Assembly: GCA_903860745.1 (NCBI GenBank)
Contig: CAIORQ010000030.1
Coordinates: 1-36,479, forward strand
From: an uncultured Actinomycetes bacterium
GTDB lineage: Bacteria; Actinomycetota; Acidimicrobiia; Acidimicrobiales; RAAP-2
Length of the DNA stretch: 36,479 nt
Direction of reading: 5' to 3'
Program-made: the position numbers and the translations under genes
In this document: positions 33,250-36,479 of the stretch, one piece after another
Layout: each line of letters starts with the position of its first letter
Position numbering within the stretch: the first letter of the stretch is position 1
Notes under the pieces: model-generated
Seen by the model: only the letters and a program-made list of their open reading frames with translations
What the model was told of the DNA's origin: nothing
Databases searched by the model: none

Positions 33250-34724
33250 CCTTGACCATCCCCTCCATCCACTACCTGGTGATCCTGCCGGTCCTGATCT
33301 TCTTCGGGGCCTCGCTGGCGCTGCTCATCGCCTCGGCGATGTGGCGCCGCTCGGTGCCCCTGGCCTTCTCGACCACCGTGAGCGTCGCGGCCTCGCTGGC
33401 GGTCGTGGTGGTGTCCTTCTTCCAGTGGCACTGCCTCGACAAGAGCGGCGCGTCGACGACCATCGCCCACGCCGTGGTGCTCGACGGCTTCTCGGTGGTG
33501 GCCACCGCCGTCATCGCCGTGTGCACCGCGCTGTCGTCCCTGGTGGCCCGGGACTGGCTGCGGCGCGAGAACGTGCGCGGCGCGGAGTACCAGATCCTGG
33601 CGCTGGCCTCGACGGCCGGCGCGATGCTCATGACCCAGGCCAACGACCTCATCGTCATCTTCTTGGGCCTGGAGATCCTCTCGCTGGGCCTCTACGTGCT
33701 GGTCGCGCTGGACCGGCGCAAGACCGAGTCGGCCGAGGCGGCCCTGAAATACTTCATCCTGGGCGGCTTCGCCTCGGCGATCTTCATCTACGGCGCCGCC
33801 CTCGTCTACGGCGCCACCGGCTCGACCAACATCACGACGGTCTCGTACTTCCTGGGCTCGAACGTTCTCCTGAAGCCGGGTCTGCTGGTGGCCGGCGGCG
33901 CGCTGCTGCTGGTGGGCTTCGCCTTCAAGATCGCCGCGGTGCCCTTCCACATGTGGTCGCCCGACGTCTACGAGGGCGCGCCCACGCCGGTGACCGGCTT
34001 CATGGCCTCCATCGTCAAGGTCGGCGCCTTCGCGGCGCTGGTTCGCGTGATGATCTCGGGACTGGGCACGCAACTGGCGACCTGGCGGCCGATCTTCTGG
34101 GCCCTCATCGTCTTGACCACGGTGGTGGGCGCGGCGCTGGCGGTGCCCCAGCGCAACGCCAAGCGACTGCTGGCCTACTCCTCGATCAACCAGGCCGGTT
34201 TCATCCTCATCGGCGTCTGGTCCGCGGACGCGCGCGGCGTGGCCGCCTCGCTCTTCTACCTGGCGACCTACGCGCCCGTGGTGGTCGCCACCTTCGCCAT
34301 CGTCTCGGTGATGGGGGGCCTCGGCGACGAGCGCCACTCGATCGAGAGCTACCGCGCTCTGGCGCGGCGCCAGCCCTGGTTGGGGGCCTCGCTGGCGGTG
34401 CTGCTGCTGACCCAGCTCGGCGCGCCCCTGACGGCGGGCTTCTACGCGAAGTATTCGGTGCTGGCCTCGGCCGTTGACGCGGGTGGCGCGCCGCTCGCGC
34501 TGATCGCCCTGTTGAGCGCGGCGATCGCCGCCTCGGTGTACCTGCGATGGACCGTGGTCCTCTACGCCGAGCCCGACGAGGAGCTCGACGTGAGCCGGGT
34601 GGTGGTGCCCACGGGCACGCGCATCACCATCGGCGCGGGCGTCGTCGTCGCCCTGTTGTTCGGCGTCTGGCCGGGTCCCTTGGCGACCCTGGCCCAGCAC
34701 GCCAGCGTCTACTTCCTTCCGTGA
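33246..34724 (+). CDS. nuoN: NADH-quinone oxidoreductase subunit N
   Basis: Third antiporter-like pump, 492 residues with about 14 helices. Conserved parts are FLGLEILSLGLYVLVA (Glu), GFAFKIAAVPFHMWSPDVYE, GAPTPVTGFMASIVKVGAF, and RLLAYSSINQAGFILIG. It completes the nuoA-N set in the standard order with no gene missing. The stop overlaps the start of the ATP-grasp gene by four bases, extending the operon by one gene. Confidence 0.96.
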   Translation: MTLTIPSIHYLVILPVLIFFGASLALLIASAMWRRSVPLAFSTTVSVAASLAVVVVSFFQWHCLDKSGASTTIAHAVVLDGFSVVATAVIAVCTALSSLVARDWLRRENVRGAEYQILALASTAGAMLMTQANDLIVIFLGLEILSLGLYVLVALDRRKTESAEAALKYFILGGFASAIFIYGAALVYGATGSTNITTVSYFLGSNVLLKPGLLVAGGALLLVGFAFKIAAVPFHMWSPDVYEGAPTPVTGFMASIVKVGAFAALVRVMISGLGTQLATWRPIFWALIVLTTVVGAALAVPQRNAKRLLAYSSINQAGFILIGVWSADARGVAASLFYLATYAPVVVATFAIVSVMGGLGDERHSIESYRALARRQPWLGASLAVLLLTQLGAPLTAGFYAKYSVLASAVDAGGAPLALIALLSAAIAASVYLRWTVVLYAEPDEELDVSRVVVPTGTRITIGAGVVVALLFGVWPGPLATLAQHASVYFLP

Positions 34725-35590
34725 GCCGCGTCGCTCTCGCCACCTCCCTCTTCGCCCTGCCCGGAGCGGGTCCGTCGGTCACCTCCCACCTCGACGAGGA
34801 CATGCCCGTCCTCGTGGCCGAGCTCGCGCGCCTCGGCGTCGAGGCGCGTGCCGAGGTCTGGGACGACGAGCGGGTCGACTGGGAGTCCTACGACCTGGTG
34901 GTCATCCGCTCCACCTGGGGCTACGCCGACAAGTACCCCGAGTTCCTGGCCTGGGCCCACGCCCGGGCCCACCTGGTCAACCCCTACGCCGTGGTCGAGT
35001 ACTCGAGCGACAAGCACTACCTCGGCGACCTGGCGGCCCAGGGTCACCCCGTCATCGAGACCGGATTCTGCGAGGTGGGCGAGGAGCCGGCCTGGCCGGA
35101 CGGTGAGTTCGTCGTCAAGCCGGCCATCGGGGCGGGGTCCGTCGACGCCGAGCGCTTCACCACCGACCAGCACGAGACGGCCCGCGCGCACGTCGGGCGC
35201 CTTCACGCAAAGGGTCGCGCCGCCGTGATCCAGCCCTACGTCGCGGCGATCGACGAGGAGGGCGAGCGGGGGCTGGTGTTCTTGGACGGGGAGTTCTCCC
35301 ACGCGTTGGCCAAACGCGCCCACCTCAAGGTGGCCGCCCACGAGCGCGACGGGGCCTTCCGCAACCGTCAGACCTACGCGGTCACCGCCGAGGACGGCGC
35401 CCTCGACGTCGCGCGGGGGCTCCTGAGCGGCGGCTTCGCCGACCTCACCTACGGGCGCGTCGACCTCGTCAAGACCCCCGCGGGGTGGCAGCTGATGGAG
35501 CTCGAGCTCGTCGAGCCGGCTCTCTATCTGTCCTTCGACGAGGGGGCGGCTGCGCGCTGCGCCCGGGCCATCGCTCGACGCATCCCCTGA
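34721..35590 (+). CDS. ATP-grasp family protein coupled to nuoN
   Basis: A 289-residue protein with ATP-grasp features, the fold that joins a carboxylate to an amine or thiol through an acyl phosphate. Visible are VIRSTWGYADKYPEFLAWA (61-79), the ATP-binding strand FVVKPAIGAGS (130-140) with its Lys133, IQPYVA (170-175), and the metal-binding ELELVEPALYLSF near 260-272. The pattern resembles the RimK/glutathione-synthetase-like group that includes DcsG, but the substrate is unknown. GTG 34721 lies in the nuoN stop (GTGA), so it is co-translated with complex I. No partner enzyme of a biosynthetic pathway is adjacent. Confidence 0.85.
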   Translation: MSRVALATSLFALPGAGPSVTSHLDEDMPVLVAELARLGVEARAEVWDDERVDWESYDLVVIRSTWGYADKYPEFLAWAHARAHLVNPYAVVEYSSDKHYLGDLAAQGHPVIETGFCEVGEEPAWPDGEFVVKPAIGAGSVDAERFTTDQHETARAHVGRLHAKGRAAVIQPYVAAIDEEGERGLVFLDGEFSHALAKRAHLKVAAHERDGAFRNRQTYAVTAEDGALDVARGLLSGGFADLTYGRVDLVKTPAGWQLMELELVEPALYLSFDEGAAARCARAIARRIP

Positions 35591-35635: not shown

Positions 35636-36148
35636 ATGCGCGCGGTGGCCCCCTTCGGTGACGGCGAGGTCTCGCACGCGGCACCACCCGTGAGTTTCGG
35701 CGAGGCGATTCGTCGCGGGGTGACGGACTGGCGTTTCGGGGTGCGCGGCTCCCGCTCGGAGTACTGGTGGCTGGCCGTGTTCTCCTCGCTGGTGACGATG
35801 GCGATTCGCGCCGCGCTCGGTCCCCACGACAAGGGTCCCGTCGCCATCGTCGTCGCCGTGTTCTTGTCGGTCATCATGTTCAAGGCCTTCGTACGCCGGT
35901 ACCACGACATCGGTCGCTCCATGTGGTGGGCGGTGCTCAACTACGCCGTCGGTTACGTGGCCACGATTCTCGCGATCATCGGATTCGTTGCGGTGGTGGT
36001 GTCGGCCCTTGGACCAGGATTGTCCACGCGCACACACAGATTCATCGACTTTGGGGAGGCTGGTCTCGTCGTGGCTGTCATCAACGGGGTGTGGACGTTG
36101 ATATGGCTGTGCCGAGCGGGAGAGAAGGGCCACAACCGCTGGGGATGA
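35636..36148 (+). CDS. DUF805 membrane protein, C-terminus possibly truncated
   Basis: A 170-residue membrane protein with the DUF805 signature pieces GVRGSRSEYWWLAVF (a variant of the FxGRxxRxEYW motif), RRYHDIGRSMWWAVL and, at the end, GEKGHNRWG. Three or four hydrophobic segments are present. The function of the family is unknown. Relatives usually continue after NRFG/NRYG with a short GPDP-like tail; here the stop follows NRWG directly. Codon choice also changes after about 35985 (GGA, GTT, AGA, ACA, TTT, ATA become frequent), unlike the strongly GC-ending first two thirds. Just 23 bases behind the stop an antisense recombinase gene ends, so the tail may have been replaced by an inserted element. 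Confidence 0.85.
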   Translation: MRAVAPFGDGEVSHAAPPVSFGEAIRRGVTDWRFGVRGSRSEYWWLAVFSSLVTMAIRAALGPHDKGPVAIVVAVFLSVIMFKAFVRRYHDIGRSMWWAVLNYAVGYVATILAIIGFVAVVVSALGPGLSTRTHRFIDFGEAGLVVAVINGVWTLIWLCRAGEKGHNRWG

Positions 36149-36171
36149 AGGTTCATCGAACGAGTGCGGGT

Positions 36172-36479
36172 TCACGTCGGCCCACCGACTTGCACGTTCT
36201 CCGATCCCTTGAGACCGACCTCCGAGTAAAGCACGTGAAGCGCGGGACTACCTACCGCTTTCACTTCCAAGTGATCGGGAAACACTGTCACCGACTCGAC
36301 CATGTTCTCGATGAGGACGCGTCGCTCGCGGTCGTCTGCGGCTTCCCAGAGCGTTTCAATGTCGAAGTTGGCCAGGACTGCCGCGACCTCTTCGAATCGG
36401 GTCTCTAGGTCCGTCTGAGCCTCAATCCACCGTCGAGCTCTCGTCGTTGGTGAAGTTCGGCCATCGTGGGATCGCTGAT
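36172..36479 (-). CDS. Large serine recombinase, C-terminal part (runs off the right edge)
   Basis: The minus strand is open from the window edge to TGA at 36174-36172: 101 residues of a protein whose start lies outside. A coiled-coil-like stretch (RRWIEAQTDLETRFEEVAAV) leads to DIETLWEAADDRERRVLIE, then SVTVFPDHLEVKAVG and, at the very end, SEVGLKGSENVQVGGPT. This is the well-known C-terminal ending of large serine recombinases (resolvase/invertase superfamily with recombinase and zinc-ribbon domains) used by integrating elements. Base composition is less GC-rich than the rest of the window. The catalytic domain is not visible, so whether the gene is intact is unknown. Confidence 0.8.
   Translation of the reverse strand, partial: QRSHDGRTSPTTRARRWIEAQTDLETRFEEVAAVLANFDIETLWEAADDRERRVLIENMVESVTVFPDHLEVKAVGSPALHVLYSEVGLKGSENVQVGGPT

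Follow-up and report, generated by a model that had tools for sequence, protein, structure and literature searches.

Integrase-side end of a probable small integrated element, interrupted by an IS1380-type insertion, at a contig end of an uncultured Acidimicrobiales bacterium

The window analysed here (36,479 bp) takes up all of contig C30, one of the 110 contigs of a 2.13-Mb genome rated 96.6% complete, and the contig holds nothing further to the right. At this right-hand extremity we find what is very probably (roughly 85%, in our estimate) the integrase-side end of a small mobile element (36164-36419), later hit by an IS1380 insertion sequence, with relatives that most likely are integrated elements able to excise. 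The element would have entered the chromosome downstream of an ATP-grasp-like gene and a DUF805 gene, through a large serine integrase that would recombine the element end with a chromosomal site and whose gene reads toward that end. The features on which this reading rests are as follows:

34721 to 35590, plus strand: ATP-grasp-like gene, a host neighbor outside the element, for which 96 of the 148 genomes give a hit at E<=1e-20
35636 to 36148, plus strand: DUF805 gene, the last host-side gene before the boundary (PF05656, 55 bits, cut-off 25.7)
36164 to 36183, plus strand: element end (L end, GTGCGGGTTCACGTCGGCCC), at the start of similarity common to L111, L112, L114 and L115, with different host flanks
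36172 to 36419, minus strand: terminal 81 codons, with the stop, of a large serine integrase gene (3' end), with 100% DNA identity to the intact gene of genome G082 and a paralog on contig C40
36420 to 36479, no strand assigned: IS1380-family edge inside the integrase gene, with the contig end within it (62 bp 100% identical to the copy on contig C81)

A preliminary description of this DNA had singled out an open minus-strand frame at the contig end with the C-terminus EVGLKGSENVQVGGPT, and such a frame is indeed there, with 101 codons (36172-36477), open at the contig end and with its stop at 36172. It is made of two pieces joined by chance, an integrase tail and an IS1380 edge. By itself the 101-residue frame retrieved nothing at E<=1 in a Pfam search and a single weak PHROG match, to an integrase (E 0.015). 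In a protein comparison against 148 genomes its last 81 residues proved to match, at 100% identity, the C-terminus of an intact 476-codon integrase frame in G082, another species of the same genus, and the DNA of the two is likewise 100% identical from 36162 to 36419, where the identity stops. Hence the proposed recombinase C-terminus stands for the tail and falls for the first ~20 residues, which are insertion sequence, and the frame is not a piece of a single gene. The low GC content noted earlier also holds: 36172-36417 has 59.3% GC, against a mean of 70.7% (sd 3.5) for 246-bp windows taken every 50 bp over 1-36148, none of which is as low.

The next best tails are those of G034 (93% identical), G058 (90%) and two copies in G028 (88% and 86%); the integrase frames of the best relatives are open over 486 codons, or 476 counted from a GTG start. 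A second match within the same genome, on C40, is 53-54% identical and covers only residues 20-100 of the 101-residue frame; in the reverse search with the C40 integrase the matching part of C30 is 36178-36417, corresponding to residues 438-517 of a 518-residue ORF. The domains that the preliminary description expected in a full gene are largely present in these intact relatives: 1) the G082 integrase contains Resolvase (139 bits) and Recombinase (36.6 bits, cut-off 21.1) domains, with a zinc ribbon at 24.5 bits, just below its cut-off of 25.3. 2) The C40 ORF has Resolvase, Recombinase (26.9 bits) and zinc ribbon (30.5 bits), all above the Pfam cut-offs. In integrase alignments the motif YCRVS with S10, as well as D79-R80, is invariant (numbering of the G082 gene; this region is absent from contig C30), and by family analogy we take S10 to be the nucleophile. 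Run against the PDB, the integrase profile retrieves the integrases of TP901-1 and A118. Judged by these similarities, a large serine integrase gene has its 3' end at 36172-36419.

The remainder of the frame has a different source. The last 62 bp of the contig (36418-36479) agree at 100% identity with one end of an insertion sequence of ~1.6 kb that is complete on C81 (C81:19804-21390; L019:7805-9391), and the 19-20 codons with which the reported frame opens come from this sequence. The 440-residue transposase of the C81 copy passes the NCBIfam model NF033539 (IS1380) with 307 bits (cut-off 180), which, together with imperfect terminal inverted repeats (CCTCAATCCACC / GGTGGATCCAGG), assigns it to the IS1380 family; it differs from that family in that the one complete copy, flanked by TTTAG on the left and CTAAG on the right, lacks an exact target duplication. 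The dinucleotide AG at 36418-36419 is common to the integrase gene and the IS end. All five left junctions in the genome (the window, C81, C96, C91 and C92) read [CT]TNAG followed by CCTCAATCCACC; that of the window is preceded by CTGAG, and at the same point G082, in which the gene is uninterrupted, has GTCTGAGACTTGG. This junction pattern and the uninterrupted sequence together place the IS between 36419 and 36420. A second mobile element, of the IS1380 type by its sequence, has thus jumped into the integrase gene at the contig end, separating the last 81 codons from the rest, and we suggest that the window copy has lost its function and is probably inactive unless served in trans. Further IS edges occur on C96 (100% identical), C60 (the other end, 99%), and C91 and C92 (84-85%). 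Contigs C60, C91, C92, C96 and C30 all start or stop inside IS1380 copies, which are of two sequence types.

On the host side, the intact relatives resemble the window only from 36162-36164 rightward, and the DNA before this point differs among them. This edge falls past the stop of the DUF805 gene (36148) and short of that of the integrase (36172), precisely where the preliminary description had sought the beginning of an element, and the integrase stop codon (36172-36174, minus strand) falls inside the L end. The ATP-grasp-like gene, usually single in the genomes that match it, hits Pfam R2K_3 weakly (E 0.19). We compared its loci in 29 relatives, the best of the 96 genomes with a match. None of them has a match to DUF805, a gene that is variable at this place and may be an earlier arrival. 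The GC content of the DUF805 gene (64.7%) is below the window average. More than 60 bp are available past the ATP-grasp gene in 27 of the 29 relatives, and 18 of these 27 have a convergent gene of ~990 codons there (at ~3.1 kb from the ATP-grasp gene in G045). In the genome of the window this convergent gene (81% identical) is encoded on C86, where it is followed by other DNA, so that the usual right-hand neighbor is on a different contig from the integration site. G009 carries a bare end motif without an integrase ~85 bp behind the ATP-grasp gene. The locus behind this gene is a variable place. The integrase tail is likewise not a fixed resident: it is present in 36 of 148 genomes, the window's own included, all of one genus, and in none of the other 35 does it adjoin the ATP-grasp gene, being on other contigs in 34 and, in G014, a degenerate copy ~8.7 kb away on the same contig.

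The intact relatives define a compact family. An integrase of their own and delimited ends are found in L112, L114, L115, L118 and C40, whereas the window copy has one end visible. From end to end these elements measure 2.7 kb (C40), ~3.1 kb (several), 3.9 kb (L115) and 4.2 kb (L114). Two copies at different places in G028 have a 3.05-kb core that is 83% identical, followed by variable cargo and then a common 38-bp right end. The right-end sequence is GCGGGTGCTGTNATACAG...CGCACCC; the right end of the G082 element is unlike this common form. The gene set in relatives with listed ORFs comprises the integrase, a Rep-like protein of ~350-390 residues and mostly a protein of 127-150 residues, and the cargo of L114 includes a trypsin-like protease. 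Two features that the preliminary description advised looking for did not turn up: no phage or conjugation genes were seen in the delimited relatives with ORFs listed, and tests of six elements found no direct repeat linking one end to the other, apart from scattered 8-9 bp matches. The lack of such a repeat, and of any copy of the tRNA T-arm past the right end in L118 and C40 (two tRNA-Leu elements), speaks against a straightforward insertion into the tRNA gene. The genome that contains the window has a complete cousin at C40:60628-63345 (L023:10618-13347), with tRNA-Leu(GAG), integrase, Rep-like gene and right end; past it lie degenerate integrase pieces (C40:65185-65690). Two contigs, L111 (G082:C3, 3153 bp) and L113 (G058:C212, 3129 bp), are each almost exactly one element, which is what an assembler would produce by collapsing several copies, or a circle.

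The Rep-like gene lies upstream of the integrase, in some cases truncated, in 15 of the 18 loci searched, and was not found in L198, L200 and L205. Neither the Rep-like nor the small protein receives a confident name from Pfam and NCBIfam, with Rep_trans being matched weakly by two of three Rep-like proteins tested (E 0.15 and 0.014), and the Rep profile, searched against PDB sequences, hit only two proteins, weakly, both of them unrelated. Tyr179 of the Rep-like protein is invariant. For its AlphaFold2 model (pLDDT 86) the five best PDB matches are all rolling-circle initiators (chains of 4cij, E 2e-9 to 4e-9, and 4cwe, E 2e-7), with modest TM-scores of 0.37-0.57, and the next are TATA-binding proteins at E 4e-4 and weaker. 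Among plasmids the Rep-like protein matches six small ones of 1.7-1.8 kb, one from Mesotoga and five from Synechococcus. The predicted fold thus points to a rolling-circle-type replication initiator of the Rep_trans type. Given this gene content, in which an integrase, such an initiator and usually one small gene lie between two conserved ends, we propose that the relatives most likely excise as a circle, replicate, and are perhaps mobilised by a helper, much like an integrative mobilizable element (IME) or an integrating rolling-circle plasmid.

Two kinds of integration site are seen. In C40, L198, L200, L201, L202, L203 and L206 the integrase gene ends within tRNA-Leu(GAG), its TGA stop being part of the T-arm read antisense, and G084 (L120) has the same arrangement. 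ARAGORN detected no tRNA in the window, L111-L115, L197, L199, L204, L205, L207, L208 or L273. In the subfamily of the window the end reads GTGCGGGTTCACG[TC]CGG and is preceded by different DNA at each locus: the DUF805 gene in the window itself and, as we read the ORFs, presumably nrdJ in L114 and an acyl-CoA dehydrogenase-like gene in L115. The three comparable host flanks have at most one 9-bp match in common (E 0.38). As it is found in at least three unrelated places, the window subfamily looks, from these flanking sequences, to be multi-targeting.

What became of the rest of the window's element admits more than one answer. Searches of its own assembly, at the protein level with the C40 integrase and at the DNA level with the entire G082 element, matched only the C30 tail and the C40 relatives (the protein query also a distant recombinase on C37), and the right-end motif occurs on C40 only. 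The claim that the element continues beyond the window is therefore unproven; as nothing but the tail was found in the assembly, an interrupted and a truncated copy look the same. It could be that the tail is a remnant, the rest having been deleted, perhaps by recombination between IS copies, so that unrelated chromosome lies behind the IS; we rate this as a serious contender, at somewhat short of even odds. The empty searches in a 96.6%-complete genome agree with it, as does the fact that short tails without the rest are common among relatives. However, IS copies are points at which this assembly is broken (C96 and C60 end or start in one), so that a short contig from the middle may just have gone unassembled, and the tail has kept 100% identity to an intact gene, which makes the event a recent one. 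Three candidates for the far side were set aside: 1) the end of C37, considered as the 5' half of the gene, where a second, distantly related serine recombinase (C37:4777-5711, L018) is cut by the contig end, as it is 33% identical to the N-terminal part of the C40 integrase, runs off the contig and has no IS match there. 2) The IS edge of C60, which is flanked by CTTAG rather than CTGAG on a contig without any recombinase part, a weak argument given that this IS lacks exact target duplications. 3) The DNA behind the convergent gene, in view of its position on C86.

Two further readings concern the junction itself. Contig ends within repeats are where assemblers err, and the integrase gene could in principle be intact with the 36419/36420 junction an assembly chimera; we regard this as very unlikely, since the junction falls exactly at the IS terminus and follows the [CT]TNAG that also precedes the other four left junctions, and since G082, with its gene uninterrupted, has CTGAG at this very point. 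Still more improbable is the view nearest to the preliminary description, in which a single recombinase frame, open as it is up to the contig end, would continue past that end and open a large phage or conjugative element: going rightward the frame enters the IS1380 element, where the contig ends, so that a continuous recombinase frame is refuted, and the delimited relatives measure only 2.7-4.2 kb. We thus retain the reading of a small element's integrase-side end that was later hit by an IS1380 copy.

The 17-base end motif (at most one mismatch) is present in 61 of 148 genomes, with a maximum of 13 copies (G005), whereas the reversed-motif control scored 0 or 1 on each strand of all the genomes. 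Many copies without an integrase occur in G005, G009, G028, G074 and other relatives (L164-L183, L121). The integrase-less sites that were fetched retain ~20-35 bases of the end before diverging; at some of them the left flanks are homologous and the right flanks unrelated, and in the pairs compared the solitary motifs stand at synteny breakpoints. No right-end motif was found in G005, or near the solitary motifs in the loci scanned. That they are plain empty targets was rejected on two counts: at the nrdJ locus the similarity between G017 and G028 (86% over 5.7 kb) stops at the motif, and the right flanks of 36 integrase-less sites compared are mutually dissimilar. They could be remnants, non-autonomous elements or hotspots. 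A speculative and rather doubtful scenario would join these observations into a lineage-restricted family of ~3-kb integrating rolling-circle replicons (serine integrase, Rep_trans-type initiator and one small protein) that began in tRNA-Leu(GAG), where a T-arm copy with the integrase stop became the movable end, and later turned multi-targeting, leaving up to a dozen end copies per genome, some of them element-less hotspots of integration or rearrangement.

A serine-integrase element and an IS1380 copy are ordinary kinds of mobile DNA; the small family pairing this integrase with a replication protein looks little described, and the literature searched, mostly outside subscription journals, yielded no account of it. 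In the excerpted text of one review, IMEs include forms with Rep_Trans/MobT-type proteins and a Tn4451-type serine-integrase IME of low site specificity (PMC5704250). The present elements resemble IMEs as excerpted there in being small, with an integrase of their own and a predicted rolling-circle-type initiator possibly serving both replication and mobilization, in that no transfer apparatus was seen, and in the several integration sites of the window's subfamily; they differ in being only ~3 kb, and in that the cousins at tRNA-Leu use a serine integrase, unlike the tRNA-targeting IMEs tabulated in that text, which use tyrosine integrases (PMC5704250). With AICEs, as characterized in the consulted part of an older survey, they have in common Actinobacteria as hosts, an integrase beside a plasmid-type replication protein, and tRNA sites; they depart from them in that no FtsK/SpoIIIE-type translocase was found in the 3.1-kb G082 element (three ORFs, Pfam scan), and the same part of that survey describes the Acidimicrobidae as devoid of AICEs (PMC3218068). 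Closely related integrases at unrelated host sites recall the multi-targeting large serine recombinases, for which the abridged source reports DUF4368 to be common in the clade, a domain not found in the G082 integrase (PMC10083194).

Scans of genomes and viral contigs with short peptide patterns, which are not exhaustive, recovered integrases at least 51% identical at 17 of 80 loci among the matches listed, the remainder being at most 37% identical; the 17 comprise 10 labelled Acidimicrobiaceae, 4 with other actinobacterial labels, 1 labelled Frankiales and 2 from one Acidobacteria-labelled MAG. On viral contigs 1 of 18 loci reaches 57% identity and the others at most 34%. The viral contig L273 (IMG/VR, 16.2 kb), with its 57% identical integrase, also encodes a Rep-like protein and has both ends, at a distance of 3.1 kb. 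Plasmid and phage records gave no match reaching 60%, the ten best listed in each being 24-28% identical. The contig end is thus resolved into one mobile-element event nested in another, with edges placed to the base, and is tied to a compact element family of a peat and soil Acidimicrobiaceae lineage, in which the tRNA-bound and multi-site integrases, 60-62% identical to each other, would offer material on how a site-specific serine integrase abandons its tRNA target.
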